Source: Ruminobacter sp. (GTDB taxonomy: Bacteria > Pseudomonadota > Gammaproteobacteria > Enterobacterales > Succinivibrionaceae). Taken from it: a stretch of DNA of 64,000 bases. This document shows positions 44,368 through 60,947 of this stretch, in pieces. Position numbers and translations under genes: made by a program. The notes below the pieces were generated by a model. That model was not told the origin of the DNA, made no database searches, and worked only from the letters and a program-made list of their open reading frames with translations. The DNA lies in assembly GCA_017940385.1 (NCBI GenBank), contig JAGAYS010000044.1:1-64000 (forward strand), read 5' to 3'. Positions within the stretch are counted from its first letter, which is position 1. Each line of letters starts with the position of its first letter.

Positions 44368-45288
44368 TCAGCCGTAGAGATTTCTGCTGAAATACCTGTC
44401 ACCGCGATCCGGAAGCACCACCACGACATTTCCGGTTGCACCTCCGTCAATCAGCTTTAAAGCGGCACTGAGTGCCCCTCCGCTGGATGAGCCGGCAAAA
44501 ATACCTTCCCTGCGTGCCAGATCTCCGCTGAACAGATATGCCTCCTCATCCGTAATCTTAATGACTTTATCCACATAAGACATGTCCATGGTATCAGGAA
44601 TAAAATCATTTCCAATTCCCTCTATGTCATAATCACCGTGCTCCCCGCCACCCATTGTTGAGCCTATCGGATCTGCCAGAACGCCCTGTACGTTGGGATT
44701 CCGTTCCTTCAGATATTTCAGAACACCGGTAAAAGTACCGCCACTGCCTGCACCGGCAACGACATAGTCGACCTTACCGTCAAGGTCATTCCATATTTCA
44801 GGACCGGTTCCTTCATAGTGAGCCTTTGGATTGCTTAACGTTCTGAACTGATTCAGTATGACGGCATCCGGAGTGTTTCTTACGATTTCCTCAGCCTTGG
44901 CAGCTGCCTCGAGCATGCCGCCTTCTCTTGACGTATTGATTATCTCTCCCCCCAAAGCTTTCATGAGTGTCTGCTTTTCAGGTGAAAATTTTAGCGGCAC
45001 GACAAAAATGGTCCTGTATCCCTTCTCAAGAGCCGCAAATGCCAGTCCCAGCCCGGTATTTCCTGCAGTCGGCGCCACAATCACACTGCGTCCGGGAATA
45101 ATAAGTCCTTTTTCCTCCGCTTCGCGGAGCATGTACATTCCCGTACGATCCTTTACGCTGCCGGACGGATTCCACAGCTCCAGTTTTGCAAAAAGCCTTA
45201 CGCCTTCGGGAAGAGCACGAAGTCTGGTTAGTTCCACAAGAGGTGTATTACCTACAAGATCATGCATTGATTTATAGTAGCGGCCCAT
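44368..45288 (-). CDS. mccA: Cystathionine beta-synthase, O-acetylserine-dependent type (MccA)
   Basis: A 306-residue PLP enzyme of the cysteine synthase family. PLP lysine is in NPSGSVKDRTGMYML, substrate loop TAGNTG, the phosphate-binding GSGGTFTG and the end SGGALSAALK plus LPDRGDRYFSRNLYG. The sequence SPEKQTLMKALG at the mobile loop, and the position just behind a cystathionine lyase gene, fit MccA (YrhA of Bacillus), which joins homocysteine with O-acetylserine or serine; a second gene, cysK (48018-48974), has the classical cysteine-synthase loop. The ATG at 45288 has AGGAG five bases upstream and is one base after the mccB stop, so coupling is certain. A plain cysteine synthase cannot be excluded from sequence alone. 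Confidence 0.82.
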   Translation of the reverse strand: MGRYYKSMHDLVGNTPLVELTRLRALPEGVRLFAKLELWNPSGSVKDRTGMYMLREAEEKGLIIPGRSVIVAPTAGNTGLGLAFAALEKGYRTIFVVPLKFSPEKQTLMKALGGEIINTSREGGMLEAAAKAEEIVRNTPDAVILNQFRTLSNPKAHYEGTGPEIWNDLDGKVDYVVAGAGSGGTFTGVLKYLKERNPNVQGVLADPIGSTMGGGEHGDYDIEGIGNDFIPDTMDMSYVDKVIKITDEEAYLFSGDLARREGIFAGSSSGGALSAALKLIDGGATGNVVVVLPDRGDRYFSRNLYG

Positions 45289-45289
45289 A

Positions 45290-46453
45290 TCAACTCCTAC
45301 TCTCATTTAATGCATTTTCCAAATCAGCTATAAGAGAATCGATATGCTCTATTCCCGGAGAAAGCCGGATGAGATTATCTGTTATGCCAAGCTTCTCTCG
45401 TATGTCTGCAGGAATGGAGGCATGAGTCATTGTTGCCGGATGGCATGCAAGCGATTCAACACCGCCTAGACTTTCTGCCAGAGTAAACACCTTAAGTGAA
45501 TGAAAGAATTTTCTGACGTCATATCCCTTTTTGAGTTCAAACGAAAACATGGCGCCGCCGTTTACGGCCTGAGATGCATTTAGTTCATAGCCGGCAAATT
45601 CCTTTAAGCCCGGATAATAAACCCTGCTGACTGCCTGATGTGCAGACAGATAATCAACCAGTTTTTCAGCATTCTGCACATGTCTGTCCATTCGCACACC
45701 AAGTGTTTTAATCCCCCTGATGAGCAGGAACGAGTCAAATGGCTGTAACACACCTCCCGTGCTGTTCTGAATAAAGGCGATTTTTTCGGCCAGTCCTTTT
45801 CCTGCGGCCGTAACCACAAGACCGGCAATCAAATCACTGTGTCCGCCGAGATACTTTGTTGCACTGTGAACAACTATATCAATGCCGAAACTCAGTGGGC
45901 GCTGCAAATACGGAGTCATAAAGGTATTGTCCACAATTGAAATAATGCCGTTCTTTCCGGCAAGAGCGGCAATTCCGGCAAGATCTGTTATTTCCATAAG
46001 GGGATTGGTCGGAGTCTCCGCATATATTGCCTTAACGTCAGGAGTTATCCTCTCTTCAATTTTCTTTAAATCCCCGGTGTCCACAAGTTCATAATTTAAA
46101 TTAAATCTCGTGAAAATCTTATCCAGTACCCTGAACGTTCCCCCGTATACGTTTCGGGAAACCAGAATTTTATCCCCAGCCCTGAAAAGCATCAGCACTG
46201 CAGATATGGCTGCCATACCGGAGGCAAACGCAAATCCAGCCTCACCGCCTTCAAGAACCTTGATGGTATTTTCCAAAGCCGCTCTCGTCGGATTTCCGGT
46301 TCGTGAATACTCCCAACCGTTAGTCGGACTGTTAAGGCTCTGCTGTTTATAAGTAGATGTCTGATAGATTGGAACGTTCACTGCTCCTGTCTGCGTATCA
46401 TGATCAAAGCCACCATGAATCAACACCGTCTCAATATGTGTATCCGCACTCAT
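45290..46453 (-). CDS. mccB: Cystathionine gamma-lyase / bifunctional lyase (MccB type)
   Basis: A 387-residue PLP enzyme of the Cys/Met metabolism family. It begins with ETVLIHGGFDHDTQTGAVNVPIYQTSTY, has SRTGNPTRAALE, FASGMAAISAVL, DNTFMTPYLQRPL and the PLP lysine in VVHSATKYLGGHSDLIAG, ending in SLGGVESLACHPATMTHASIP and IRLSPGIEHIDSLI. Family members in this context split cystathionine to cysteine, 2-oxobutyrate and ammonia and may also act on homocysteine. The ATG at 46453 is decided by GGAG six bases upstream. It follows luxS after 37 bases and precedes mccA by one base. Confidence 0.88.
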   Translation of the reverse strand: MSADTHIETVLIHGGFDHDTQTGAVNVPIYQTSTYKQQSLNSPTNGWEYSRTGNPTRAALENTIKVLEGGEAGFAFASGMAAISAVLMLFRAGDKILVSRNVYGGTFRVLDKIFTRFNLNYELVDTGDLKKIEERITPDVKAIYAETPTNPLMEITDLAGIAALAGKNGIISIVDNTFMTPYLQRPLSFGIDIVVHSATKYLGGHSDLIAGLVVTAAGKGLAEKIAFIQNSTGGVLQPFDSFLLIRGIKTLGVRMDRHVQNAEKLVDYLSAHQAVSRVYYPGLKEFAGYELNASQAVNGGAMFSFELKKGYDVRKFFHSLKVFTLAESLGGVESLACHPATMTHASIPADIREKLGITDNLIRLSPGIEHIDSLIADLENALNESRS

Positions 46454-46490
46454 GTTTATCTCCATTTTGCTTTAGTAATTGTTTTTAGTT

Positions 46491-46952
46491 TTAGGATTTA
46501 TAATTCATCTGCTCGGGAGTCCATGACTCAATGATCCAGCCGTAGGCTAAAGCCTCTCGTCTTGCCCCCACCGGATCCTGATTAAGATAATTCCCGCATT
46601 CTCTTTTTGAGGCCCCCGGAATGTCGCCGTTAAATCCTGAGATATAATCAAACGCGTTCCTTACCAGAGTAATGGCATCCTTTTTCGAAACCGAATCCCT
46701 CAAAAGAAGATAGAAACCGGTACGACATCCCATTGGGCCGGCATAAACAACTCTGTCGGCAAAAACGCTGTTACGCACATATGTGGCAAGCAGATGCTCT
46801 ATTGTATGAAGCGTTCCGTTATCAAGATAATCTCCGGAATTTGGCTTTTTCATACGCAAATCGTACGTAATCACGTCCCCGTCCCTGCGTGAAATATACA
46901 TTCCGGGCTCAAGAATATTATGGTCTACCTGAAAGCTTGCTATGGTTTTCAC
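46491..46952 (-). CDS. luxS: S-ribosylhomocysteine lyase LuxS
   Basis: A 153-residue metalloenzyme that splits S-ribosylhomocysteine into homocysteine and the precursor of autoinducer 2. Metal ligands are His49 and His53 in THTIEHLLATYVRN-type LHTIEHLLATYVRN and Cys119 in RECGNYL; the catalytic Cys76 is in GPMGCRTGFYL, and Glu52 lies between the two histidines. The GTG start has AAGGAG seven bases upstream and begins two bases after the methyltransferase stop. Together with mtnN (32854-33555) it regenerates homocysteine from S-adenosylhomocysteine, which MccA and MccB then convert to cysteine. Confidence 0.95.
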   Translation of the reverse strand: MKTIASFQVDHNILEPGMYISRRDGDVITYDLRMKKPNSGDYLDNGTLHTIEHLLATYVRNSVFADRVVYAGPMGCRTGFYLLLRDSVSKKDAITLVRNAFDYISGFNGDIPGASKRECGNYLNQDPVGARREALAYGWIIESWTPEQMNYKS

Positions 46953-46954
46953 GA

Positions 46955-47893
46955 TTATTCTCCTTTTCGATCCTCTCTGCGTACCGCACTGATGAGATGA
47001 ATGTTGTCGAATGCATGAAGCCCATCACTTCTGTCTCTGAAATAATGGTGTTCTATGGCTTTCGGAGACAGATGATTAACGACTTCAAATCCGGCGCTGT
47101 TCAAAGCCTGTCTGATTTCGGAAAGTCTGAACCCGTGAACCATCGGTTCACCGAAACTCTGCGTTATTCTGGCTAATATTCTTGTCCTTTCCGATGCATT
47201 TTTGGTGAGTGTAGTCTCATCCGGGAAATCAAAAACCACCAAATCCCCGTCATGTGCAATGGAACTCAGAGTCTTCAATGTCTCCGTAAAAGTCGGTAAG
47301 GAAAGGTAGTATGAAACACCCAGAATACTGAAAACCGTAGGCACTCCGTCAGCGAAATCCTGAGCATACAGTTTTTCCGGAAGATGATCCCTTGCAAAAT
47401 CGACCGGAACGAACCGAACACCTCGCGGGATACACCAGCTTAGCTCCCTGATTCTGTCGAGCTTAAACCTCTGTGTATCAGGATGATCCACCTCAAACAC
47501 CGATATGGAATCATTTGCATTTCGAAAAGAAAATGTATCCATACCAGCTCCCAATATCACATACTGAATCCGGCCATTATGTCTTCTTGTAAAACGATTA
47601 ATGATCCTTTCCGTAAAATCTATTCTTATAAGAGGAATAGGCGCTATATAATCAGCAAGATTGCCTGAAAACTTTTCTTTTGAAAAACCTCCGTAGGTTT
47701 TCAGGTCCACGGCATTCCCTGAATCTCCGGTTGGAATGTCCGCTATAACTCCGGCTATCTCGTTATATCCGTCAAATCCCATCAAATCAAAAGCAAGGTA
47801 ATCGTCAAAGATTTTTTCTTTTGAAAAATTAGAATGATAGGCCCTGGCAAATGCGCACAGCTTTGCCGTTGTACTCTCCTGTTTAGTTATCAT
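46955..47893 (-). CDS. SAM-dependent methyltransferase of the leucine carboxyl methyltransferase (LCM/PPM) family
   Basis: A 312-residue class I methyltransferase. QYVILGAGMDTFSFRN is the SAM-binding loop, followed by the acidic residue of VFEVDHPDTQRFK, a pair typical of LCM-type bacterial methyltransferases; the N-terminus LCAFARAYHSNFSKEKIFDDYLAFDLMG fits the same family. The substrate is unknown. It is the first gene of a tight run with luxS (two-base gap), mccB and mccA. In Bacillus the equivalent operon starts with a different methyltransferase, YrrT, so a methyltransferase that supplies S-adenosylhomocysteine seems to be a recurring part. CGGGA is a few bases upstream of the ATG. 124 bases separate it from cysK. 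Confidence 0.85.
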   Translation of the reverse strand: MITKQESTTAKLCAFARAYHSNFSKEKIFDDYLAFDLMGFDGYNEIAGVIADIPTGDSGNAVDLKTYGGFSKEKFSGNLADYIAPIPLIRIDFTERIINRFTRRHNGRIQYVILGAGMDTFSFRNANDSISVFEVDHPDTQRFKLDRIRELSWCIPRGVRFVPVDFARDHLPEKLYAQDFADGVPTVFSILGVSYYLSLPTFTETLKTLSSIAHDGDLVVFDFPDETTLTKNASERTRILARITQSFGEPMVHGFRLSEIRQALNSAGFEVVNHLSPKAIEHHYFRDRSDGLHAFDNIHLISAVRREDRKGE

Positions 47894-48017: not shown

Positions 48018-48974
48018 CTAACCTAAAAAAAGAGGTGTTGAAAGATATCGGTCACCATCGTCCGGGAAAAGGACCACAATGTTTTTACCGGCATTTTCCA
48101 CCCTGGAAGCTACGACAGACGCAGCCTTAAGAGCAGCCCCTGATGAAATACCGGCCAGAATCCCCTCATTGCGGGCCAGCTGTTTACCGTACTCATACGC
48201 ATCCTCATTGGTAACGGTAATGATTTCATCATAGACGGCGGTATCAAGAGTGAACGGAATAAATCCCGGACCGATCCCCTGAATCTTATGAGACCCGGAC
48301 TTTCCTTCAGACAACACCGGTGATCCGGCAGGTTCAACACCTATGATGCGTATATCAGGATTTCTTTCCTTAAGGTATCTGCCAACCCCGGTAATGGTTC
48401 CGCCCGTACCGATTCCGGCGATGAATATATCCACCTTTCCGTCTGTATCATCCCAAATTTCTGGGCCGGTTGAATCATAATGAGCCTGAGGATTAGCCTG
48501 ATTGTTAAACTGTCCTGGAATAAAACTGCCGGGAATTTCTTTTGCGAGTTCTTCCGCTCTGGCTATTGCGCCGCGCATACCCTTGGCACCTTCGGTAAGT
48601 TCAAGTTCGGCACCATAAGCCTTCAACAGATTTCGACGCTCCACGCTCATGGTATCAGGCATGGTAATGATCACCCTGTACCCTCTTGCCGCGGCAACAT
48701 ATGCAAGACCGACACCCGTATTACCGGAAGTAGGTTCAATAATAACCGAGTCTTTGGTTAACAGTCCTCTGTCCTCCGCATCCTGAATCATGGATACGGC
48801 AATTCTGTCCTTAACGCTGCCTGCCGGATTAAACAGTTCAAGCTTTGCCAGAATTTTTCCGTTGAATCCGATTATTCTGGCCGTATTTCCCAACTCAACC
48901 AGAGGAGTATGGCCTATTAAATCCGTAATTTTCCTGTATATTCTGCTCATTTTCTTCAATGGTTCCTTAAACAT
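48018..48974 (-). CDS. cysK: Cysteine synthase (O-acetylserine sulfhydrylase)
   Basis: A 318-residue PLP enzyme that makes cysteine from O-acetylserine and sulfide. The PLP lysine lies in [15 protein letters not shown], the substrate loop is [14 protein letters not shown], the phosphate-binding loop [13 protein letters not shown], and SSGAALKAA is near the end, with [20 protein letters not shown] matching CysK. The start at 48974 has AGGTAAGAT upstream; an ATG at 48950 aligns better with the E. coli start and is an alternative. It is divergent from the ABC transporter genes beginning at 49311 and may be the first gene of the methyltransferase-luxS-mccB-mccA group, since no terminator is seen in the 124 bases between. 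Confidence 0.93.
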
Positions 48975-49310: not shown

Positions 49311-50402
49311 ATGCTTGGTAAGATAGCCAAACCTCTTTTATTAAGTGCATGCATTGCACTTAGTCTAGCCTCACCTGTAACGGCTTTCGCAGAACAGGAA
49401 AACCATGAACAGCTTGGTCATTCGATAAAGGAACAGATTCCGTTTTCTCTCGGATATCTGACTACCACCAGTCATCTGCTGGCATTTATTGCCAAGGAAG
49501 AAGGTTATTTTTCCGAAGAGGGACTGGATGTTGAACTGATTCCTTTTGCAAGTGCGGGTGAACTTGCTACCGGACTTGAAGTCGGTAAGTTAAACGTTGC
49601 CCTCATCGGCTCTGTTCCGTCAATCACCTTCCAGAGCAATGGCCATGATTTGACCATTTTTGGTGGAGCGATGACAAACGGCCACGGCTACGTTATTAAG
49701 CCTGAATTTGTACCTGCTGATCGCGAACCTACCATAGAGGATCTCAAAGGCAGAAACGTTGCATCAGTTAAGAACAGTATTCAGGATCTTGAGCTTCTGA
49801 TTCTTCTTAAGAAGCACAATCTGGAAATCGGTGAAGGACCTGATAAGGTAAACATCGTTTACTTCAACAGCCAGAAAGACGCCTTTGCTTCAATGCAGGG
49901 TAAGGAAATAGACGCGGTTTCATTCTTTCCTCCGTTCTCATCAATTGCACAGGCCAATGGTTACAGGGTAATTTTCCACTGCAAGGATGTAGAGGACTTC
50001 CACAATCAGCCATGCTGCAGACAGGTTGCCGAATCCTCAGCCATCAATGAAAGAAAGGATGATTACATTCACTTCGAAAGAGCTTTTATCAAGGCATACA
50101 TTTTCTACAAGACTAATCATGAACAGACAATTCAGGATGTAAAGAAGTACGTAAATCTTGCACCGGAAACTCTTGATTTTGAAATTTACGGCGGCTTCAC
50201 AAGTAACCATCCGGATCCGGACAAGAAGGCCACCTCAGAGCTCAAGAAACAGGTTGTGGATGCCGGATATGCCAACGACTACGACATAGAAAAGCTCTAC
50301 AACACATCCATTTACGAGCAGGCTCTAGCCTCACTCATTAAGGAAAATCCTGATGATCCTATTCTTAAGGATCTGCAGGAACACTTTAATAAATTCCAGT
50401 AA
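49311..50402 (+). CDS. ABC transporter substrate-binding protein, NitT/TauT/SsuA type
   Basis: A 363-residue periplasmic binding protein with a signal peptide (PLLLSACIALSLASPVTAFA). The mature part has the NMT1/SsuA features FSLGYLTTTSHLLAFIAKEEGYFSEEGLDVELIPFASAGELATGLEVGKLNVALIG (given here as landmarks, not as one motif), then IEDLKGRNVASV and the SMQGKEIDAVSFFPPFSSIAQANGY lobe. An unusual QPCCRQV stretch carries a Cys pair. The ligand may be a sulfonate, nitrate, taurine or thiamine precursor; the divergent cysteine genes favour a sulfur compound. GGAG lies eight bases before the ATG. The ATPase and permease genes follow. Confidence 0.86.
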   Translation: MLGKIAKPLLLSACIALSLASPVTAFAEQENHEQLGHSIKEQIPFSLGYLTTTSHLLAFIAKEEGYFSEEGLDVELIPFASAGELATGLEVGKLNVALIGSVPSITFQSNGHDLTIFGGAMTNGHGYVIKPEFVPADREPTIEDLKGRNVASVKNSIQDLELLILLKKHNLEIGEGPDKVNIVYFNSQKDAFASMQGKEIDAVSFFPPFSSIAQANGYRVIFHCKDVEDFHNQPCCRQVAESSAINERKDDYIHFERAFIKAYIFYKTNHEQTIQDVKKYVNLAPETLDFEIYGGFTSNHPDPDKKATSELKKQVVDAGYANDYDIEKLYNTSIYEQALASLIKENPDDPILKDLQEHFNKFQ

Positions 50403-50429
50403 GAGTCAGGCATCCCCTGCTCGAAATGA

Positions 50430-50470
50430 GGGCACGGACATTCCGAGATTTATTCATGACATCCGTGCCC
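50430..50470 (+). repeat. Intercistronic hairpin between binding-protein and ATPase genes
   Basis: GGGCACGGA and TCCGTGCCC arms (9 bp perfect) enclose 23 bases. No T-run follows, and the downstream gene is in the same operon, so it more likely protects or attenuates than terminates, giving more binding protein than ATPase mRNA. Confidence 0.6.
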
Positions 50471-50484
50471 CCGGAGAACAAAAA

Positions 50485-51306
50485 ATGACAAACAACAATA
50501 AGAAAATCGAGATAAACAACATCAGCCTGACGTATGAAGGATCCGGAACAGTGTTTCAGGCACTTAAAGACGTATCACTTACCATAAATGACGGTGAGTT
50601 CGTTAGCATTATAGGTTCTTCCGGCTGTGGAAAAAGTACCCTGCTCAGCATTCTTGAAGGATTACGTACACCTTCCGCCGGAGAAGTGCTGATTGATGGG
50701 AAAAAGGTCGAAGGCACAGGTCGGGATCGCGGAGTGGTCTTTCAGCAGTATGCCCTGTTTCCATGGATGACAGCCGAAAAGAACATATCATTCGGAATAA
50801 AACAGGTAAAACCAGAATTATCAAAAAAAGAAAGACTTGAACTTTCAAATCAGTTTCTGTCCAAAGTTGGTCTGTCAGGAGCAAAGGACAAGTATCCAAG
50901 AGACCTTTCAGGCGGCATGCAGCAGCGAGTGGCAATTGCCCGAGCACTGGCCATGGATACTGACATTCTTCTGATGGATGAACCTTTCGGTGCAGTTGAC
51001 GCCAAAACCAGAGTAATTCTGCAGGAACTGCTGCTGCATCTTTGGGAAGGTGATGGCACCAGCCGAAAAAAAACCGTGGTATTCGTTACCCACGACATTG
51101 ATGAGGCAATCCTCCTGTCTGACCGCATCATCATGATGAGGGCAAATCCGGGACGTGTCTATCAGGAAATTCCGGTAAATCTGGAACGTCCGCGTTCACG
51201 CTCAGAGCTTGTAAAAAGCCGCGAATACTCTGCCGTAAGAAATGAAATAATGTCACTCTTCTTCGGAGACATCAAGGATCAGATTGATCAGGAGGCTGTT
51301 ATCTGA
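50485..51306 (+). CDS. ABC transporter ATP-binding protein (SsuB/TauB type)
   Basis: A 273-residue ATPase. Walker A is GSSGCGKST (residues 44-52), the Q-loop VFQQYALFPWMTAEKN, signature LSGGMQQRVAIARALAMD, Walker B ILLMDEPFGAVDAKTR and the H-loop VFVTHDIDEAI. DEPFGAVDAKTR and LFPWMTA are characteristic of the nitrate/sulfonate/taurine group. The ATG at 50485 has GGAG eight bases before it. The stop codon overlaps the permease ATG (TGATG). Confidence 0.92.
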   Translation: MTNNNKKIEINNISLTYEGSGTVFQALKDVSLTINDGEFVSIIGSSGCGKSTLLSILEGLRTPSAGEVLIDGKKVEGTGRDRGVVFQQYALFPWMTAEKNISFGIKQVKPELSKKERLELSNQFLSKVGLSGAKDKYPRDLSGGMQQRVAIARALAMDTDILLMDEPFGAVDAKTRVILQELLLHLWEGDGTSRKKTVVFVTHDIDEAILLSDRIIMMRANPGRVYQEIPVNLERPRSRSELVKSREYSAVRNEIMSLFFGDIKDQIDQEAVI

Positions 51307-52226
51307 TGACCATAAAAGAACGTTTTTTAAGATATGCTCATCTTCTGTTTATAATTTTCGTGCTGGCTGAACTTTTTCTGCCTGACGGAACCAGAAGGGC
51401 TCCGCTGATAAACTATGCTATTGGTTTTGCATCCGTCATCGAAATCATGCTTTTGACCGTATCCGCCCTGTCCGGATGCAGAAAAAAAATTGTAATGTTT
51501 ACCGACCTGGGAATAGTTATATTCACTGTTCTCCTCGTTTGGGAACTGATGACAACAAAGTTCAATCTGGTAAAACCAATACTGTTCCCGCCACTAGGCG
51601 TGCTGGTACATCAGTTTATAGAAGACATTCCGGAAATTGCCAACAACATAGTTTCCTCACTGGGTATCATTATTCAGGGATATGTACTCGGACTTATCGG
51701 CATACCTGTTGGCCTTTTCCTGGCAACGGATAAAAGAATTTCATCCATTTCAGGTCATATTGCCGGTTTTCTTGGTGCCATTCCGCCAATTGTGTACATA
51801 CCTTACGGCATTGCACTGCTCCCAACTTTTAGATCCGTTTCAGTGCTGGTTATTTTCCTTGCGACGTTCTGGCCTGTTCTCATGGGAACAATAAGCGGAG
51901 TAAACCATGTTGACAAGAGACTTCTGGACTCGGCAAAAGTACTTAACCTCAGCAGAACAAGCACCATTTTCCACGTCGTGCTTCCTGCATCGCTGACTCA
52001 GATCTTTGTAGGAGCAAATCTTGGTCTATGCATATCGTTTATTCTTCTGACCTCAGCTGAAATGATTGGAGCGAGGGCTGGACTGGGTTTCTATGTAAAG
52101 AATTACTCCGATCTTGGAGATTACACCAGAACAATAGTCGGCATTATAATAATCGGCGTTGTGGTTGTTGCATCTACCTGGGCCGTGAGCCTGATTCAGA
52201 AAAGACTGTTAAGATGGCAGTCATAG
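51306..52226 (+). CDS. ABC transporter permease (SsuC/TauC type)
   Basis: A 306-residue membrane protein with two N-terminal hydrophobic segments before the permease core, then about five to six helices. The EAA-like coupling loop is NHVDKRLLDSAKVLNLSRTSTIFHVVLPASLTQI, as in the BPD_transp_1 family. LTSAEMIGARAGLGFYVKNYSDLGDYTRTIVGI is the typical late region. It completes the three-gene transporter that starts at 49311 and is followed by a terminator 44 bases on. Confidence 0.9.
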   Translation: MTIKERFLRYAHLLFIIFVLAELFLPDGTRRAPLINYAIGFASVIEIMLLTVSALSGCRKKIVMFTDLGIVIFTVLLVWELMTTKFNLVKPILFPPLGVLVHQFIEDIPEIANNIVSSLGIIIQGYVLGLIGIPVGLFLATDKRISSISGHIAGFLGAIPPIVYIPYGIALLPTFRSVSVLVIFLATFWPVLMGTISGVNHVDKRLLDSAKVLNLSRTSTIFHVVLPASLTQIFVGANLGLCISFILLTSAEMIGARAGLGFYVKNYSDLGDYTRTIVGIIIIGVVVVASTWAVSLIQKRLLRWQS

Positions 52227-52306: not shown

Positions 52307-52418
52307 TTCTGTATTCTTTAGAAAATTGCGGTACATTCAGACGAATACCGCTGCCGGCATCCCAAAAACTTCAAAATTCCAGATAAAAAAATACTGTTTG
52401 GCAGATTAAAGTGTTTCG

Positions 52419-53105
52419 TTAAGCGCGATTATCCTGTTTCAGAGTGTTCAGAAACAGCGAAAAAACCCCGCTGGAATAAATATAATAACCGCAGAGCTCA
52501 AGTGATTCCTCAACGAATCTTTTGTAGATGTAGTATTCACTCCTTTCAGCCCCGGTAAAAGCCCAAAGCTGATTCATTCCCATAACACGGGAGAGTATCA
52601 GAACCATTAACATTCCGTAGAAAATGGCACCGAATCCGTCTGAGAAAATTATTTCCTTCATGGAATTAAGGGTTCTTCTCAATCCTGCCAGAATCAGAGT
52701 CTTGTGAAAGGCAAAGATCACAATGCAGACAACGATAATCTTCCACAGGTGAACCGCAATGCTGTCAAAAAAGAAATCCAGTTCCCTTACCAGCATGCAC
52801 AGAGTGAAGCAGCCGGCAAGAACAGCCACCTCCTTCAGCTTAGTGTTTTTTCTGGCGATAAGAAAAAACAGTGCGGCATCAACCGCAAGCAGAAACTCCT
52901 GAAGAATTTCAGTAAGCGAATATTCCACAGAGCCAATTGCTCCTACCAGCCTGTAGTTAAGCAAGAAGGTAGACAGGCATACAAGCATGCCAAGCCCCGT
53001 AAGGATAAATCTGCCGAAAGTATCCAGCAGAACATGAGCGGATTCGGTATACGATGAATCCTGCATACTGTGTGAGTTCACACCGTTATTCACTGCAATG
53101 GTCAT
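52419..53105 (-). CDS. Polytopic membrane protein of unknown function
   Basis: A 228-residue protein with about five hydrophobic segments (near residues 31-48, 64-84, 92-109, 119-138 and 159-175) and a cytoplasmic-looking charged C-terminus that ends FVEESLELCGYYIYSSGVFSLFLNTLKQ. RELDFFFDS and EESLELCGY are conserved-looking acidic motifs of a membrane family I cannot name. No signal of transport ATPase or sensor domains. It lies alone, convergent with the ABC transporter operon. Confidence 0.7.
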   Translation of the reverse strand: MTIAVNNGVNSHSMQDSSYTESAHVLLDTFGRFILTGLGMLVCLSTFLLNYRLVGAIGSVEYSLTEILQEFLLAVDAALFFLIARKNTKLKEVAVLAGCFTLCMLVRELDFFFDSIAVHLWKIIVVCIVIFAFHKTLILAGLRRTLNSMKEIIFSDGFGAIFYGMLMVLILSRVMGMNQLWAFTGAERSEYYIYKRFVEESLELCGYYIYSSGVFSLFLNTLKQDNRA

Positions 53106-53563
53106 TTTCAGAAATAATTATAATTAGATATAAATATTATGATAAAACTAAAGTCGTATATATATATCATACAAAAGTGACATACACTACATAAATCGCA
53201 ATTTTGCCGGATTATATCACGATTAAATAATCTATGTAATTAAAATGTTATCATAAAGTTTACTAATCAGTATTAATAACTGAACCGTGTCCACACCCGA
53301 ATTTAGTGTTTTCTGATTCTCAACCGAACCTTTTTAGATAATGAATACGTGGAAGTGAGGTCATTGACCAATAACCATTTCAAATCAGGCTCCTCAGACA
53401 TACGGTATGCGGTTACGCAAAATCTGCACCGGATATGAACACCGTACCGTTTCCATGCATGTCTTCCTCAACTTGCACTTGTTTTGCCGCGCACGGTATT
53501 TGCAGGACAGTTACAGGGCTTTAGCCGCCACAAGTGACATTTACGAGCCACACTGACACACAC
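53106..53563. other. Intergenic region, no gene seen
   Basis: About 460 bases between the start of the membrane protein gene and the end of the aminotransferase operon. The first part is AT-rich and presumably the promoter of the membrane protein gene; I see no ORF with coding character. Confidence 0.5.
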
Positions 53564-53593
53564 AAAAAAAACGCACGAAGCTGAATTCGTGCG
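53564..53593 (-). terminator. Terminator of the oxidoreductase/PaaK/aminotransferase operon
   Basis: Arms CGCACGAA and TTCGTGCG around GCTGAA; on the minus strand the stem is followed by T8. It lies about 40 bases past the aminotransferase stop. Confidence 0.88.
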
Positions 53594-53632
53594 AAAAATA
53601 AAGAAAAACAGAAAAGAGTGATAATTAATTAT

Positions 53633-54802
53633 TTAATGTTTTAATAATTTTTCCCTGACGGTTTTCAATCTGTCCAGAGCCTCAAGCAGTGTCTCGTCCC
53701 TCTTTGCAAAATGAAGACGTATGTAGTTCTTTACAGAACCGTTCTTAAAGAAACTGGAGCCGGGAACTGCGCCGACACCGACAACGGACGCCAAATCCTC
53801 ACAGAATTTAAGATCATCGTCATAACCGAACTCAGAAATATCCACAAGAACATAATATGCTCCCTGAGGCACGGTATGCCGCAGACCAATCCTGTCAAGC
53901 CCGTTTACGAACAGTTTCCTCTTTCTGAGGTATTCGTTCTGAAGACTCTTGTAATATTCTTCTCCGAACTTTAGAGCGGTTACGGCTGCTTCCTGCAGCG
54001 GGGCTGCCGCTCCAACCGTCAGAAAGTCATGTACCTTGCGTGCGTAATCTATAATCCGCTTGGGAGCAATTATGTACCCAAGTCTCCATCCCGTAACGGA
54101 ATATGTCTTTGAGAGAGAGCCGCATGATATGGTTCTGTCCCACATTCCCGGAAGTGAAGACATGTAGGTATGCACGTTAGGCGGGAACACTATGTGTTCA
54201 TACACCTCATCAGTAATGACAAAAACATCGTACTTCACCGCTAAATCAGCGATGTACTGAAGCTCATCCCTTGTAAACACCTTACCGCACGGATTTGACG
54301 GATTACACAGTATCAGAGCCTTCGGTTTCAGCGCAAAGGCTCTCTCAAGTTCCTCCATGTTAAATCCGAACTCAGGAGGGTTTAAATTTACAAAAACAGG
54401 CTCAGCACCTGAAAGGATGGCGTCGGCAGCATAATTCTCGTAAAAAGGAGAAAAAACGATTACCCTGTCACCAGGATTGGTTACCGTGAGCATTGCGGCC
54501 ATCATGGCTTCAGTACTTCCTGAGGTAACCACGATTTCACCTTCCGGATCTATGTCGCGTCCTATCAGTTTGGATTGTTTTGCAGCCAGAGCTTCCCTGA
54601 AATTTCTGGCGCCCCAGGTTATGGAATACTGGTGAAATCCCTCGTATGCCACCTGTGAAAGCCTGTCCATAAGTTCCTTCGGAGGATCAAAATCAGGGAA
54701 CCCCTGTGACAGGTTAACGGCACCATATTTCTGACAAATTCTTGTCATTCTTCGAATAACGGAATCCGTAAAGGTTCCGCATCTTGCGGAAAGCTCAGCC
54801 AT
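53633..54802 (-). CDS. PLP-dependent aminotransferase, class I/II
   Basis: A 389-residue fold-type I aminotransferase. NLSQGFPDFDPPKEL, TSGSTEAMMAAML, NPSNPCGKVF, VITDEVYEH and the PLP lysine Lys232 in SLSKTYSVTGWRLGY are in order, followed by the substrate Arg in NYIRLHFA. The subgroup resembles broad-specificity kynurenine/glutamine/aromatic-type aminotransferases. It is the last gene of the operon, 12 bases after the PaaK-like gene, which suggests it acts on the 2-oxo acid handled by the ferredoxin oxidoreductase. Substrate is not predictable from sequence. Confidence 0.88.
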   Translation of the reverse strand: MAELSARCGTFTDSVIRRMTRICQKYGAVNLSQGFPDFDPPKELMDRLSQVAYEGFHQYSITWGARNFREALAAKQSKLIGRDIDPEGEIVVTSGSTEAMMAAMLTVTNPGDRVIVFSPFYENYAADAILSGAEPVFVNLNPPEFGFNMEELERAFALKPKALILCNPSNPCGKVFTRDELQYIADLAVKYDVFVITDEVYEHIVFPPNVHTYMSSLPGMWDRTISCGSLSKTYSVTGWRLGYIIAPKRIIDYARKVHDFLTVGAAAPLQEAAVTALKFGEEYYKSLQNEYLRKRKLFVNGLDRIGLRHTVPQGAYYVLVDISEFGYDDDLKFCEDLASVVGVGAVPGSSFFKNGSVKNYIRLHFAKRDETLLEALDRLKTVREKLLKH

Positions 54803-54814
54803 TTGTCATATCTC

Positions 54815-56158
54815 CTAAATATTGTAGGTCAGGTTACGTTCGTCGATAATACGCTTAGATTTGTGTTCTGAGCGGGTGTTCAGACCTCCGTCTGGATGAA
54901 CAACCACTGCATAAGGCTTAACACCGACTCTGGCCTTGATTGCGGTTGAAACTCTTGCAGCCAGTTCTTCATCAGTCTCATTATTGTCAGCGTTCTTTTC
55001 AACTTCAACGTTGTACTTGCAGGTTAAATCCTTCTCATAAATTCTGACGAGGTACTCACCGGTAATGCCCTTGATTCCGCGAATTACAGCTTCAATGTCA
55101 CTAGGGAATACGTTAACCGCAGATACGATGAACATGTCGTCCTTACGGCCGAGGATGTGTATTCTGCCATGTGTTCTGCCGCAAGAGCAAGGAGTCTGGT
55201 CAATTCGGCCGATATCACCGGTTCTGAATCTTATCATCGGTCTGGCCTTCTTGCGCAATGTGGTGTAAACGAGTTCACCCACCTCGCCGTTAGGAATTAC
55301 CTCACCGGTATGGATATCCACTGTTTCCACATAAATCTGGTCTTCTGCAATATGCAGACCGTCCTTGGCATCACACATTGCCGCACACGCACCGTAAATA
55401 TCTGAAAGGCCATAGAAATCGTAAACTTTAGCGCCCCACAAATCTTCAATTGCCTTTCTGGTAGTATCAATTGAACCGCCCATTTCACCGGCAACGATAA
55501 TGGTTCTGATTGAAAGATCCTTCTTCGGATCTATGCCGTTCTTTTTGGCGGTTTCGCCAAGGTACCAGGCATATGAAGGGCTGGTCCATATAATGGTCGG
55601 CTGATAAGTCTTAAGTACAAAGAGAAGTCTTTCGCTCGGAAGGGTACCGCCCCAGATACATAACGCTCCGAGATTCTGGGCTCCGATTACGTCAGGACCA
55701 CCAACGTAGAGGGAGAAGTTAAGTGCATGAATGTAACGATCCTTTGGTCTCATTCCCACCTGCCAGAACCAGCGGCTTTCAGTATCCTGAAATTCATCAA
55801 AATCCTCCTGGGTAAAAGGACTTATGGTCGGAACACCTGTAGAACCTGATGAAGATGAAATAAAGACCACTTCTTCCTCAGGTACGCAGCAGAGTTCACC
55901 AAGAAATGAGCCTACACCCTGAGTTTCACGTTCGGTCTGCTTATTAATGAACGGAAACTTTGCCAAATCAGAAAGCTCATGAATATCATCTGGACTTACG
56001 CCTGCCGCATCAAAAGAACGTTTATAATACGGAGAATTTTCATAGGAAAACTTAACTATTTCCTTTAAACGTTCCAACTGAAGCTTTTCAAGTTCAGGAC
56101 GAGGCATGGTTTCAATCTTCTCGTTCCAGTACTTTCTTTCTTCCTGTACTTTTGCCAT
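54815..56158 (-). CDS. Phenylacetate-CoA ligase family protein (PaaK-like)
   Basis: A 447-residue AMP-forming acyl-CoA ligase. The N-terminal RKYWNEKIETMPRPELEKLQLERLKEIV is a PaaK hallmark; the ATP loop is SSSSGSTGVPT (residues 101-111), YGLSDIYG is the A5-like motif, RTGDIGRI the ribose site, followed by CSCGRTHGRIHILGRKDDMFIVSAVNVFPSDIEAVI. Such enzymes consume ATP to activate phenylacetate, indoleacetate or other acids. AGAGGAG is seven bases before the ATG, three bases after the beta-subunit stop. Its place between the oxidoreductase and an aminotransferase gene points to acid activation followed by reductive carboxylation. Confidence 0.92.
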   Translation of the reverse strand: MAKVQEERKYWNEKIETMPRPELEKLQLERLKEIVKFSYENSPYYKRSFDAAGVSPDDIHELSDLAKFPFINKQTERETQGVGSFLGELCCVPEEEVVFISSSSGSTGVPTISPFTQEDFDEFQDTESRWFWQVGMRPKDRYIHALNFSLYVGGPDVIGAQNLGALCIWGGTLPSERLLFVLKTYQPTIIWTSPSYAWYLGETAKKNGIDPKKDLSIRTIIVAGEMGGSIDTTRKAIEDLWGAKVYDFYGLSDIYGACAAMCDAKDGLHIAEDQIYVETVDIHTGEVIPNGEVGELVYTTLRKKARPMIRFRTGDIGRIDQTPCSCGRTHGRIHILGRKDDMFIVSAVNVFPSDIEAVIRGIKGITGEYLVRIYEKDLTCKYNVEVEKNADNNETDEELAARVSTAIKARVGVKPYAVVVHPDGGLNTRSEHKSKRIIDERNLTYNI

Positions 56159-56161
56159 AAA

Positions 56162-57079
56162 TCAACTCCTCTCTAACTGTTTAGTATATCTGTTTATATG
56201 CAGCCATTTTTCATCTCTGGCTTTCTCAATCTTCTTAATAACTTCATCACTAAGATGAACAAATCTTTTCTGTCTTCTGACGTAATGATTCACATCAGTA
56301 AACGTCCCGGGTTGTTTCCCGTAATGGAACTCCCCGTCATAAAATTCAGCCTGTATCCACAGTCCTGTGCTGACTGCTTCCCTGGCCACTTCCACCATAT
56401 CTTCAGTCTTCAGTCCCCATCCCAGAGGACAAGGAGAAAGAATGTGAATAAATCTGGTTCCACGGTATGATGAGGCTTTCTGCAACTTTCTCATAAAGTC
56501 CGGCAAATCACCGACCGTCGCGGTTGCGGCATATGAAATACCATGTGCCGCCACAATCTCAAAAAGGTTCTTCTTGTCACTTAGGCTTCCTATCGCACCG
56601 TCCACAGCAGGAGATGTTGTGGTTGCGGCACCGAAAGGCGTCAGTGAACTTTTCTGAATTCCCGTATTCATGTAGGCTTCATTGTCATAACATATGTAAA
56701 GCATGTTATCGTTACGGTGAATCGCTCCTGAAAGAGCCTGTATACCGATATCGGCAGTTCCGCCGTCACCGGCGAACCCTACCACCGTAACATCATCAAT
56801 TCCCTGAGCCTTATATCCGGCCACAATTCCAGTCATCATTGACGCGGTACCGGCAAAGGTTGAAATAATGGAATTGCATCCAAATGACAGCTGAGGAAAA
56901 TTAAAGCCCACCGCAGACATACATCCTGCAGGAATTACCGCCACGCTCTTTTTACCGAGAATCTTAAGGGCTATTCTTACGGCAAGACTTCCGCCGCACC
57001 CCGGACAAGCCTTATGACCATAAAAAAGCTCATCATCGGACAGGGTTCTGACATTAATCGTTTTTGATCTCTCAGTCAT
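56162..57079 (-). CDS. porB: 2-oxoacid:ferredoxin oxidoreductase, beta (thiamine diphosphate) subunit
   Basis: A 305-residue thiamine diphosphate subunit of a four-subunit pyruvate- or 2-oxoisovalerate-type ferredoxin oxidoreductase. A [4Fe-4S] pair is at Cys25 and Cys28 (HKACPGCGG), with further cysteines in PAGCMSAVG and LSPCPLGWG. GFAGDGGTADIGIQALSGA is the TPP/Mg motif, completed by CYDNEAYMNTG. Substrate cannot be distinguished by eye, so porB is used in the general sense. It overlaps the alpha gene by eight bases. Confidence 0.88.
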   Translation of the reverse strand: MTERSKTINVRTLSDDELFYGHKACPGCGGSLAVRIALKILGKKSVAVIPAGCMSAVGFNFPQLSFGCNSIISTFAGTASMMTGIVAGYKAQGIDDVTVVGFAGDGGTADIGIQALSGAIHRNDNMLYICYDNEAYMNTGIQKSSLTPFGAATTTSPAVDGAIGSLSDKKNLFEIVAAHGISYAATATVGDLPDFMRKLQKASSYRGTRFIHILSPCPLGWGLKTEDMVEVAREAVSTGLWIQAEFYDGEFHYGKQPGTFTDVNHYVRRQKRFVHLSDEVIKKIEKARDEKWLHINRYTKQLERS

Positions 57080-58241
57080 CGTATTCCTCCCTGTTTATTC
57101 CCAAAAAATTAAGCCTGCGCCCGTCACTTTCCAGAGACTGAAATATATCCCTGATCTGTTCTCTGGATATGTCGGCTCCACCAAGTCCGCCGATGAAATT
57201 AGAAGTTCTTACTGACAGGCCTGCGACCTGCAGTGCGGAATTTACGTTGGTAAACACCGTTCCCTCATATCCGAAAGAAATATCCTTTTCGAGAACACCG
57301 ACAGCTTTAACTCCCCGAAGGATTTCAGCTATTTCCGCATCTGGAAATGGTCTCATGTACCTTATTTTCAGGAGACCGGCCGCAACGCCATCCCGGCGAA
57401 GTTCATCAACCACACTGCGAACCAGGCCTGACACGGAACCGATGGTAACGATTACGTATTCGGCATCATCACATCTGTAATTCTCCACAAGACCGGTATA
57501 CTGTCTGCCAAAAACTTCCGCAAAACTCTTTTCGGCCTCGGCAATCACTTTTTTGGCCCTGTTCATGGCCTGGTGCTCTCTGAACTTAAATCTGAAGTTC
57601 TGTTCCGGACCTACCGAAAATGCCATGCTCTTCGGACTGTCAAAATCAAATCTGTTATCTGTAACGTACGATGGCAAAAATCTGTCAGCAAGCTCCTGAT
57701 CCGGAATGTCCACAACCTCATACGTATGAGTCAGAACAAATCCATCCATGTTTATCATAAAAGGTGTCAGGACACGGGAATCTTCCGCCACGCGGTAAGC
57801 AACAAGCGACATGTCCAGAGCCTCCTGTGCATTCTCAACATACAGCTGAATCCACCCCTGATCCAGAAGTCCCATTGAATCACGCTGATCACCATAAATG
57901 TTCCACGGAAGCGCAGTGGAACGATTGGCATTCATCATCACTACGGGAAACCTTCCACCGGCTGCATAGTGGAGACATTCAGCCATGTAGAGCAGTCCCT
58001 GTGACGAAGTGGCTGTAAATGTTCTTGCCCCTGTGGCAGAAGCTCCTATTGCACATGAAAGTGCAGAATGCTCTGATTCCACATGTACAAATTCTGCCGT
58101 AAGCTTTCCTGCCGAACACATGGAGGACAGATGTTCCACAACAGTAGTCTGAGGAGTTATCGGATAAGCACTTATTACATGCGGCCGTGCCAGTCTGATA
58201 CCGTGTGCAAGTGCCTCATTCCCCGATATAAAGGTTCTCAT
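57072..58241 (-). CDS. porA: 2-oxoacid:ferredoxin oxidoreductase, alpha subunit
   Basis: A 389-residue subunit with pyrimidine-binding (domain I) and transketolase C-like (domain II) parts. It opens FISGNEALAHGIRLARPHVISAYPITPQTTVVEHL, has VHVESEHSALSCAIGASATGARTFTATSSQGLLYM and the end GLLKIRYMRPFPDAEIAEIL, FIGGLGGADI. This is the POR/VOR arrangement of Thermotoga and Pyrococcus-like complexes. Start and stop overlap its neighbours (ATGA with the delta gene; eight bases with beta), so all four subunits are coupled. Confidence 0.9.
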   Translation of the reverse strand: MRTFISGNEALAHGIRLARPHVISAYPITPQTTVVEHLSSMCSAGKLTAEFVHVESEHSALSCAIGASATGARTFTATSSQGLLYMAECLHYAAGGRFPVVMMNANRSTALPWNIYGDQRDSMGLLDQGWIQLYVENAQEALDMSLVAYRVAEDSRVLTPFMINMDGFVLTHTYEVVDIPDQELADRFLPSYVTDNRFDFDSPKSMAFSVGPEQNFRFKFREHQAMNRAKKVIAEAEKSFAEVFGRQYTGLVENYRCDDAEYVIVTIGSVSGLVRSVVDELRRDGVAAGLLKIRYMRPFPDAEIAEILRGVKAVGVLEKDISFGYEGTVFTNVNSALQVAGLSVRTSNFIGGLGGADISREQIRDIFQSLESDGRRLNFLGINREEYDD

Positions 58242-58567
58242 TTACCATGTTTCTCCATTATTATGGCGCCTTTGCGGCAGAGCTTTGCACATATGCCGCA
58301 CCCCTTACAGAAATCATAATCAATATCAATCTTCCCTGTTTTCCCATCCCGATACACACAACCTTCAGGACAGTACAGGTAACAGTTCAGACATCCGTTG
58401 CATCTGTTTCGATCACATACCGGAGTTTCAGTTCTCCACGAAGCATTAGTGACCGTCAGAAAACCGGCCTCATAAGCCGTAATTTCTGGAATTTCACCGA
58501 CAGTCAGTTTTTTCCCCTGCCTTACGAAGGGAATGGTCCTGACTTTTTCATCATTTTTCCCTGACAT
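58238..58567 (-). CDS. porD: 2-oxoacid:ferredoxin oxidoreductase, delta (ferredoxin-like) subunit
   Basis: A 109-residue subunit with two [4Fe-4S] motifs: Cys56, Cys59, Cys62 and Cys66 (RCNGCLNCYLYCPEGC) and Cys87, Cys90, Cys93 and Cys97 (FCKGCGICAKLCRKG). These pass electrons from the catalytic beta subunit to ferredoxin. I chose the ATG at 58567, with GGGGGA seven bases upstream; a TTG 18 bases earlier is possible. It overlaps the gamma gene by 17 bases and the alpha gene by four. Confidence 0.92.
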   Translation of the reverse strand: MSGKNDEKVRTIPFVRQGKKLTVGEIPEITAYEAGFLTVTNASWRTETPVCDRNRCNGCLNCYLYCPEGCVYRDGKTGKIDIDYDFCKGCGICAKLCRKGAIIMEKHGK

Positions 58568-59096
58568 AAGACTTCCCCCTGACAAAAGCTTCCTGAATTA
58601 CCCTGATATTCCCCTCCTGAAGTTTTGGGTTTAATCCCGTTCTGACGGCAGTAACCAGTGAATCCAGTGATATTTCTCCGCTAAAACCAGCCCAAAATCC
58701 AAGAATGCCGGTATTCGCAATAGGCCGGCCGAGAATTTCAGCGGCAAGTCCGGAAGCATCAAAGGTGACGACTCTTTCATCCCTGATTTCTACGGGGCCG
58801 TCGGTATTGATTATCGCCACGCCGTGCTCCCTCAACTCACTCAGGGGATTCTCCCCAAGCAGGGAGTCATCCAGATACAGAAGATAATCAGCCTTTTTAA
58901 TTTCGCTGCGATCACCCACACGTTCCGAATCTATTCTGTTAAAGGCTCTCACCGGAGCCCCTCTCCTTTCAGGGCCGAATGAAGGAAATGCCAGGGCATG
59001 GTACTCGGGACTTTCATTTATATAGGCGGTACCTAACAGTATTGAAGCGGTAAATGCTCCCTGACCTCCCCGTCCATGCCACAAAATCTCTTTCAT
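58551..59096 (-). CDS. porG: 2-oxoacid:ferredoxin oxidoreductase, gamma subunit
   Basis: A 181-residue subunit beginning KEILWHGRGGQGAFTASILLGTAYINES, the standard gamma-subunit start, followed by AFPSFGPERRGAPVRAFNRID and a late PIANTGILGFWAGFSG. It is the first gene of the six-gene operon in the order gamma, delta, alpha, beta. Its promoter shares the 388-base divergent region with lolB. Confidence 0.92.
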   Translation of the reverse strand: MKEILWHGRGGQGAFTASILLGTAYINESPEYHALAFPSFGPERRGAPVRAFNRIDSERVGDRSEIKKADYLLYLDDSLLGENPLSELREHGVAIINTDGPVEIRDERVVTFDASGLAAEILGRPIANTGILGFWAGFSGEISLDSLVTAVRTGLNPKLQEGNIRVIQEAFVRGKSYVREK

Positions 59097-59484
59097 TTCC
59101 GTTGTACCTATTATTTCCTATCGGTTTTATATGTTTTATTCACAAAAACAATTCTAAGTATTCCACTAGGGATTGTCAACATTCAATTAAATAAATTCTT
59201 AAAATAAAGCTTAAAAATAAAAAACACCCAACAAAAGAGAACATTCACATTGCTTTTGTCGCGTATTAAAAGATTGTTTCCATAAAATAATGACAGCCGT
59301 TCACATTTTAAGCTGAATTTATCATTCCCAACCACGCAATCTCTCATTTATCCGTGTCATACGGGCAGCCCTGCACTCACACTCTCCACAATTATTACTA
59401 AAATTTATCAAAAGCCTACGGCAACTGCTTTATAATTAGCTTACGTTACCGACATGTAATCACCGGAGATACGGACATAACTCC
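59097..59484. promoter_or_regulatory. Divergent promoter region porG / lolB
   Basis: No gene in these 388 bases. AT-rich next to porG; the part next to lolB contains TTTATAATTAG near 59431 as a possible -10. No terminator or riboswitch is recognised. Confidence 0.4.
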
Positions 59485-60075
59485 ATGAAGAAAACTTTGA
59501 ACATAAAATCGGCTCTTATTCTGACCTTTATTACAGTCTGCGCCCTGACCGCTTCAGCATGTACCTCAACACTGACGCCTCTTGAACAGCAGCAGCGCGA
59601 GCGCTGTATATCAGAAAAAAAGGAATACTCCGTAAGTGGCAAGCTGGGAATTTTTGATGAAAAAATCAAAACCACTACTCTTTTAAACATCGACGTCAGC
59701 AAACCTGATTACACCATTTATATATCCGGGACCACCGGAACAACACTGTTGAAAATCCGCAAAACGTCAGCAATAACCGAAATTACCGACGATAAGGGAA
59801 ACGTAAGATCAGGGAACAATGCCGATGAACTGGTGTACAGCCTCACGGGTTTGCACATTCCGTGCGACAGCCTTCCTGACATAATAACGGCAGTTCCCGG
59901 AAACAACCGGGCCGTATACAGCGAAAAAGGGACAATTGAAAGCATCAGCTTCAGCGGCTTCAAAGTCGTATACAAAAGCTTTACGGAAGTAAAAGGCATT
60001 CTGTTGCCTAAAAAGATGGACATACAGGGTGATAATTTTCTTTTAAGGATTTCAGTTAACAAATGGAATATTTAA
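59485..60075 (+). CDS. lolB: Outer membrane lipoprotein receptor LolB
   Basis: A 196-residue lipoprotein that accepts lipoproteins from LolA and inserts them in the outer membrane. Signal peptide with lipobox TASAC (Cys26). The mature part is a divergent LolB fold: EYSVSGKLGIFDEKIKTTTLLNID is the first strands, and the YSLTGLHIPCDSLPDII region lies where LolB has its exposed loop. Sequence similarity is weak, but the lipobox, size (E. coli 207) and gene order lolB-ispE-prs together make the call firm. It overlaps ispE by 13 bases. Confidence 0.85.
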   Translation: MKKTLNIKSALILTFITVCALTASACTSTLTPLEQQQRERCISEKKEYSVSGKLGIFDEKIKTTTLLNIDVSKPDYTIYISGTTGTTLLKIRKTSAITEITDDKGNVRSGNNADELVYSLTGLHIPCDSLPDIITAVPGNNRAVYSEKGTIESISFSGFKVVYKSFTEVKGILLPKKMDIQGDNFLLRISVNKWNI

Positions 60076-60929: not shown

Positions 60930-60947
60930 ACCACAGAGGTTGATATC

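Follow-up and report, generated by a model that had tools for sequence, protein, structure and literature searches.

The window studied here is a 64,000-nucleotide stretch of DNA from Ruminobacter sp. (assembly GCA_017940385.1, contig JAGAYS010000044.1, positions 1 to 64,000), corresponding to contig C38 of the source genome G000 (2.45 Mb, 94% complete). At 53633-59096 on its minus strand lie six intact genes, porG-porD-porA-porB-paaK-aminotransferase, encoding the four subunits of a 2-oxoacid:ferredoxin oxidoreductase (PorGDAB), a PaaK-like AMP-forming acyl-CoA ligase, and a class I aminotransferase (Table 1). An earlier note, made from the sequence alone, had described this operon and proposed that it turns an environmental carboxylic acid into an amino acid by reductive carboxylation. 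Pfam and NCBIfam profile searches confirm its domains. Genes for converting methionine to cysteine, together with a transporter (44368-52226), lie within 10 kb of the operon. We put at about 0.55 the probability that methionine is the product of the operon, formed from an imported thioether acid that is most likely 3-methylthiopropionate.

In transcription order, the genes overlap by 17, 4, and 8 bases and are then separated by gaps of 3 and 12. The earlier description of overlaps or gaps of at most 12 bases is therefore correct for four of the five junctions and wrong for PorG/PorD, which overlap by 17. The porD start is an ATG chosen by eye, with an alternative TTG at 58585 in the list of open reading frames. 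In the place of the single terminator claimed before, a terminator-like hairpin and T run lie 3′ of the operon (53593-53572). Promoter-like sites are about as frequent in the region (10) as in shuffled sequence (11.7). GC content is 0.465 in the operon and 0.439 in the window, with no clear foreign signature.

Table 1. Operon genes, candidate signals, and neighboring sulfur and transport genes in the window
Feature	Position	Strand	Evidence
porG: gamma subunit, 2-oxoacid:ferredoxin oxidoreductase	58551..59096	-	181 aa; PF01558; TIGR02175 over cut-off
porD: delta subunit, two [4Fe-4S] motifs	58238..58567	-	109 aa from ATG; TIGR02179 over cut-off; Fer4
porA: alpha subunit with type-specific stretch RSTALPWNIYGDQRD	57072..58241	-	389 aa; POR_N + PFOR_II
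porB: beta subunit, TPP domain	56162..57079	-	305 aa; PF02775; PRK11864/PRK11865 below cut-off
PaaK-like AMP-forming acyl-CoA ligase	54815..56158	-	447 aa; AMP-binding (PF00501) + AMP-binding_C_2 (PF14535)
Class I aminotransferase	53633..54802	-	389 aa; PF00155; best solved chain YbdL 1u08
Promoter-like site TTGACA-17-TAGAAT	59151..59179	-	11/12 consensus match only; ends 54 bases before porG
Intrinsic-terminator-like hairpin, then T8	53572..53593	-	3′ of aminotransferase gene
ABC transporter permease, nitrate/taurine/sulfonate type	51306..52226	+	below NCBIfam cut-offs
ABC transporter ATPase, nitrate/taurine/sulfonate type	50353..51306	+	below cut-offs
ABC transporter substrate-binding protein, NMT1/SsuA type	49311..50402	+	PF13379; SsuA_fam 83 bits, below cut-off 163.5
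Cysteine synthase CysK	48018..48974	-	TIGR01139 456 bits, over cut-off 351
SAM-dependent methyltransferase (TIGR00027)	46955..47893	-	135 bits, over cut-off 93.6
LuxS, S-ribosylhomocysteine lyase	46491..46952	-	NF002604 164 bits, over cut-off 158
MccB-like cystathionine gamma-lyase/synthase family protein	45290..46465	-	NF005810 537 bits, below cut-off 594
Second CysK-like gene, MccA (cystathionine beta-synthase-type) candidate	44368..45306	-	cysKM 313 bits, below cut-off 344; adjoins MccB-like gene

Types of oxidoreductase, ligase, and aminotransferase

PorGDAB has the composition of the four-subunit POR/VOR type: a POR_N and PFOR_II alpha subunit, a TPP beta subunit, a POR gamma subunit, and a 4Fe-4S delta subunit. 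The operon PorA scores below the pyruvate synthase equivalogs (PorA_Arch, 457 bits against a cut-off of 550; PRK08367, 380 against 625), and the 2-ketoisovalerate oxidoreductase models are likewise not reached (PRK08366, 359 against 646; PRK11864, 319 against 405). Since another PorA of the family also falls short of PorA_Arch (425 bits, locus L152), the score alone is a weak guide. Where the solved pyruvate enzyme 9bt4 has PINIWNDHQ, the operon PorA reads PWNIYGDQ. The stretch RSTALPWNIYGDQRD, with small variations, typifies the operon type; its W is present in 97 of 98 operon-type rows (some genomes being counted twice), and the other PorA type has I in that column in each of its 11 rows, which read PINIWNDHSD, like 9bt4. 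The W113 site aligns opposite I or L of pyruvate enzymes and presumably has a role in substrate binding. At 33 columns the two types carry different residues, each fixed in the 11 rows of the other PorA type and conserved in at least 97% of the 98 operon rows.

Across 56 genomes of the window's family, PorA separates into an operon type (at least 503 bits, 16 genomes) and another copy (at most 299 bits, 39 genomes, in one of them as two fragments) that is 38-44% identical to it; five further genomes have a full-length PFOR-size protein. All 12 genomes of a second genus, g11 (which we take to be Succinivibrio), that carry the operon PorA also carry the other copy. The family of Ruminococcus flavefaciens shows the same split, with the operon type (at least 560 bits) in 7 of 148 genomes and the other copy (254-300 bits) in nine. 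The earlier note had called the operon unusual for a gammaproteobacterium. This stands in that its PorA type occurs in only 16 of the 56 family genomes, and does not extend to such oxidoreductases in general, given the other copy in 39.

Because the operon PorA differs from the copy that reads PINIWNDHSD, like 9bt4, it points to a substrate other than pyruvate. We do not regard pyruvate oxidoreductase as the likely role, on the strength of the separate PorA type (at least 503 against at most 299 bits), the 33 diagnostic columns, and the presence of both copies in 12 of 12 g11 genomes; the pyruvate role of the other copy is itself an assumption, with a gene-by-gene look at L152 only. The operon PorA is distinct from the other POR of its family, a point in favor of the earlier interpretation. 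Some residual doubt attaches to Ruminobacter, all four genomes of which have the operon PorA without the other copy; the only POR_N match in G000 is the operon PorA.

The ligase has the fold family's two domains (PF00501 and PF14535) and reaches 304 bits with TIGR02155, against an equivalog cut-off of 646. The GYGLFTGG or GYGMFTGG of three solved PaaK proteins, a stretch that we take to be involved in substrate binding, reads NFSLYVGG in the operon ligase. The aminotransferase scores 339 bits with the methionine aminotransferase model PRK09082 (cut-off 420), which ranks third behind two models named simply "aminotransferase" (375 and 373 bits, neither reaching its cut-off). YbdL, its best solved match, presumably prefers methionine. 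Some g11 genomes (L017-L024) hold a second PaaK-like ligase, 31-34% identical and with an in-frame stop in two of eight copies.

Distribution of the gene set

Counted at 74% identity or more, the ligase occurs in all four Ruminobacter genomes, 11 of 19 g11 genomes, and none of the other 33 genomes of the family. All 15 ligase-bearing genomes have the operon PorA; in one further genome, G043, this PorA lies close to the end of a contig. Among named genomes, 270 stretches encode relatives, the best 80 of which comprise 3 from Ruminobacter and 77 others: 75 labeled Bacillota, one Treponema, and one metagenome-assembled genome labeled Bacteroides. The Bacillota carriers include Ruminococcus (R. 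bromii and R. flavefaciens among them) and further Oscillospiraceae, as well as Lachnospiraceae, Ruminiclostridium, and other Clostridia. The same gene set, which the earlier note had suggested seeking in other genomes, is therefore found in Pseudomonadota, Bacillota, and a Treponema.

Of these 77 loci, 62 have a PorA or PorB frame near the ligase gene, and the remaining 15 show none in the DNA covered. We searched the genomes of 12 of the 15 (three of them on contigs shorter than 4 kb, where por genes may be cut off), and 11 carry an operon-type PorA elsewhere, at 63-67% identity. In 7 of the 11 such stretches an aminotransferase of the operon type directly follows porB, so there the ligase gene is truly apart from the por genes. 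Because the set is kept together in three phyla, because its PorA type is present elsewhere in 11 of 12 split genomes, and because PorA accompanies the ligase in 15 of 15 genomes of the window's family, the ligase, oxidoreductase, and aminotransferase form one functional unit. The exception among the 12 is the genome labeled Bacteroides (locus L095), which has no matching PorA although the ligase gene is accompanied by an aminotransferase gene and a PorG-like frame; the contig may be misbinned.

The ligase is the most conserved protein of the set, at 78-84% identity in the 77 loci. Median identities between Ruminobacter and the other loci are 81% for the ligase, 73% for the aminotransferase, 65% for PorA or PorB, 53% for PorD, and 49% for PorG. 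In a midpoint-rooted tree of 90 ligases (3 Ruminobacter, 10 g11, and 77 others; built without a species tree), Ruminobacter falls inside a 36-row group otherwise made up of Bacillota and Treponema (support 97/91), and g11 forms a separate clade (100/97). This topology fits separate acquisitions by Ruminobacter and g11, with transfer from Bacillota to Ruminobacter likely.

Sulfur genes beside the operon

The methionine-to-cysteine set of the window (44368-47893) comprises a methyltransferase, LuxS, and MccB- and MccA-like proteins, the last two below their own cut-offs. It contains the same kinds of gene as ubiG-mccB-luxS-mccA, an operon converting methionine to cysteine in Clostridium botulinum and relatives (PMC2940859; this and the other sources cited by PMC number are represented by excerpts), in which the excerpts describe no link to an oxidoreductase-ligase-aminotransferase operon; the methyltransferase of the window is of the TIGR00027 type. 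In Helicobacter pylori, LuxS and MccAB make cysteine (PMC2923134). Between the transporter and the operon is a 228-aa protein (52419-53105, minus strand), hydrophobic by eye and with no Pfam match at E 0.001.

Similar arrangements recur among relatives. In R. amylophilus DSM 1361 (L039), cysK, methyltransferase, luxS, mccB-like, and a second cysK gene precede porG-D-A-B, paaK, and the aminotransferase on the same strand, with a gap of 245 bases between the two groups. The Treponema locus (L112) and a g11 locus (L036) have, on one strand, MetQ-, MetN-, and MetI-like genes, the operon genes, and methyltransferase, MccB-like, and CysK-like genes; the MetQNI-like proteins that were scored are all below cut-off, MetI having been scored in L036 only. 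In R. flavefaciens ND2009 (L106), methyltransferase, MccB-like, CysK-like, and LysR genes lead into the operon. In R. flavefaciens UBA1190 (L115) a transporter, methyltransferase, MccB-like, CysK-like, LysR, ligase, aminotransferase, and LuxS lie together, with PorGDAB elsewhere in the genome. Within 12 kb near the contig end in G043 (L162, contig C147, g11), the operon PorA is accompanied by PorG, PorD, PorB, LysR, Rrf2, methyltransferase, MccB-like, and two CysK-like genes. Four loci that show no por genes (L050, L060, L063, and L093) have an SsuABC-like transporter 0.2-1.9 kb upstream of the ligase gene.

Over the 77 non-Ruminobacter loci, the neighbors are a transporter permease (36), a substrate-binding protein (31), CysK-like (29), LysR (29), MccB-like (16), and methyltransferase (12) proteins, and more rarely MetI-like (5), Rrf2 (5), and NlpA (4). 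We annotated flanking clusters present in at least 8 of 93 loci; beyond the operon proteins these are transporter, sulfur, LysR, Rrf2, and amidohydrolase clusters and one frame overlapping porD on the opposite strand. The amidohydrolase (PF04909; only the L068 copy was scored) lies by the set in 12 of the 77 loci (for example, L068:7068-7853, L072:806-1603, and L146:12324-13190) and in 6 of the 11 split stretches. In L166 (10520-11659) and L167 the gene immediately after the ligase gene is glutamate-cysteine ligase-like (scored for L166 only), which adds another connection to cysteine.

Taking as a sulfur gene any member of the CysK, MccB, methyltransferase, LuxS, MetI, or NlpA clusters, we find one no more than 4.7 kb from porA at 17 of the 35 operon-type loci with that much DNA, against none of the 11 where porA is of the other type; the latter are stretches of 8.2-9.5 kb from the window's family, and so represent fewer lineages and are not random loci. 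Sulfur genes occur in 35 of the 77 non-Ruminobacter loci, and in 20 of 30 when only loci of at least 17 kb are counted. Of 16 genomes with the operon PorA, 15 have an MccB-type gene (at least 490 bits, a threshold set after the gap was seen), as does 1 of the 38 that lack this PorA; in 11 of the 15 it is on the porA contig, and in 10 within 10 kb. The association holds within g11 (11 of 12 against 1 of 5, P = 0.01, rising to 0.05 when a 470-bit copy in G041 is included) and in the family of R. flavefaciens (3 of 7 genomes with the operon PorA, 4 of 141 without it, P = 0.002), although shared ancestry inflates these values.

MccB-type lyases release 2-oxobutyrate, and their linkage to the operon would also suit a role of PorGDAB in disposing of this by-product of cystathionine gamma-lyase as propionyl-CoA, with the ligase handling propionate. 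We consider this very improbable: it leaves the aminotransferase and the importers unexplained, and the MccB-type gene is absent from many operon loci and from four of the seven operon-bearing genomes of the R. flavefaciens family.

A possible route from a thioether acid to methionine

The genes and the families they belong to are observed, as are their recurrence as a set and the separate type of PorA; the direction, substrate, and product of the operon are what we infer. The importer nearby and the AMP-forming ligase argue for the direction from acid to amino acid, and the neighboring genes for a sulfur amino acid as the product. Among sulfur amino acids formed in this way, only methionine needs a methyltransferase dependent on S-adenosylmethionine (SAM), LuxS, and MccA/MccB to reach cysteine, which points to 3-methylthiopropionate as the acid. 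It would be imported by the ABC transporter and activated by the ligase, at the expense of ATP, to 3-methylthiopropionyl-CoA; PorGDAB, with reduced ferredoxin and CO2, would carboxylate this to 4-methylthio-2-oxobutyrate, which the aminotransferase would convert to methionine. The methyltransferase, LuxS, MccB-like, and CysK-like proteins could then lead from methionine through SAM and homocysteine to cysteine, the acid thereby serving as a sulfur source.

The same chemistry from acid through acyl-CoA and 2-oxo acid to amino acid was proposed in the earlier note; it remains the best reading of the conserved set, the importer, and the AMP-forming ligase. That note had the operon forming valine, leucine, isoleucine, phenylalanine, or tryptophan from a branched-chain volatile acid or an arylacetate (phenylacetate, indoleacetate, isobutyrate, and 2-methylbutyrate were its candidates). 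This is the main rival to 3-methylthiopropionate, and we hold it to be unlikely. R. flavefaciens and R. bromii (L106 and L072) have the same operon, and ruminococci are known for such carboxylations; in classic work of 1962, Allison is said to have found that they incorporate isovalerate into leucine. A Bacteroides IOR coupled to an AMP-forming arylacetate-CoA ligase has been argued to run in this direction, and archaeal VOR is broad in its substrates (PMC13285125). However, the operon PorA type is confined to 7 of 148 genomes in the R. flavefaciens family, the ligase is far from PaaK in both its score and its NFSLYVGG stretch, and the aminotransferase is of class I and not, as branched-chain enzymes are, of class IV. 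No aromatic or branched-chain gene is among the neighbor clusters in at least 8 of 93 loci, where sulfur genes recur instead. The earlier note had also suggested checking whether phenylalanine or branched-chain amino acid genes are missing elsewhere; G000 has matches to PDT (PheA), KARI (IlvC), and TrpA, one enzyme per pathway, which weakens the case for these substrates. The earlier chemistry is thus likely, and its substrate list probably wrong.

The operon might instead run in the opposite direction, in which imported methionine is transaminated and oxidatively decarboxylated by PorGDAB, and the ligase works in reverse to yield ATP and 3-methylthiopropionate. All steps are chemically reversible, a MetQNI-like transporter adjoins the operon in some relatives, and Pyrococcus furiosus ferments methionine to 3-methylthiopropionate with a ketoacid oxidoreductase and an acyl-CoA synthetase, ACS2 (PMC3942289). 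That synthetase, however, is NDP-dependent, unlike the AMP-forming ligase here, and AMP-forming ligases typically favor acyl-CoA synthesis (PMC13285125). In Peptostreptococcales, many oxidoreductase genes for amino acid fermentation are near Pta/Ack or ADP-forming ligase genes (PMC13285125). Methionine-to-cysteine genes with importers alongside fit acquisition better than waste, and in L050, L060, L063, and L093 the importer is by the ligase gene without por genes. We therefore regard catabolism of methionine as improbable.

Several observations weigh against synthesis of methionine by the operon. Within the DNA covered, 42 of the 77 related loci have no sulfur gene; the MccB-type gene is missing from four of seven operon-bearing R. 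flavefaciens-family genomes; and LuxS is by the operon only in Ruminobacter and L115 (its cluster occurs in 3 of 93 loci, plus the window). The loci are related to each other, and the comparison loci were not randomly drawn. The transporters are below the curated sulfonate and methionine cut-offs. G000 has both MetE- and MetH-size matches, so methionine is not otherwise missing, and with PDT, KARI, TrpA, MetH, and MetE all present no gap points to any substrate. In g11, a full-size MetE match occurs in 2 of 12 genomes that carry the operon and in 1 of the 5 sampled without it, so its presence is unrelated to the operon there; neither group has a MetH-size match. No SAM riboswitch or T-box was found at the operon in 18 related loci and window 43000-61000; the single T-box seen, in L045, is located after the aminotransferase gene. 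The LysR regulator of L106 reached no NCBIfam cut-off among the 25 models listed, and the Rrf2 protein of L028, at 114 bits, falls short of the CymR cut-off (195); neither score therefore identifies a sulfur regulator. Judging by titles among the matches listed, there is no paper on 3-methylthiopropionate in the rumen.

The fate of methylthiopropionate is described in a review as seldom studied (PMC6302742). In the open-licence literature, which leaves most subscription journals outside, we found no description of such a methionine route and no paper combining methylthiopropionate with reductive carboxylation. The nearest described systems each share part of the scheme. The Bacteroides IOR gene also adjoins an AMP-forming ligase gene and is argued to act towards amino acids, but it belongs to another subfamily with two fused subunits, has aromatic substrates, and has no sulfur-gene neighborhood described in the excerpts (PMC13285125). 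P. furiosus shares 3-methylthiopropionate and the pairing of oxidoreductase and synthetase, in the reverse direction (PMC3942289). Rumen use of branched-chain volatile acids and phenylacetate likewise turns an external acid into an amino acid and involves ruminococci, which are operon carriers too (PMC7356843); the product here is predicted to be methionine, and we found no gene set for those classic activities in the literature searched. Our best reading is a mobile methionine-from-acid module, which would be new as a variant of amino acid synthesis by reductive carboxylation. The odds seem to us about even for the fuller picture, an undescribed anaerobic route in which 3-methylthiopropionate, a waste of methionine-fermenting neighbors, is joined to CO2 via ferredoxin to give methionine and then cysteine, as a sulfur-scavenging module moving between phyla.

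Methionine is often limiting in ruminant nutrition. If this route is real, methionine would be one more amino acid that anaerobes of the rumen build anew from the acids of fermentation, with relevance to the nutrition of the host, and would be recovered by an oxygen-free, CO2-fixing route. It would also connect amino acid fermenters with degraders of fiber or starch through a new form of cross-feeding, and would give the PaaK-like ligases of Ruminococcus and relatives a function. Even with a different substrate, the conserved set points to specific genes as candidates for the carboxylation of acids by ruminococci.

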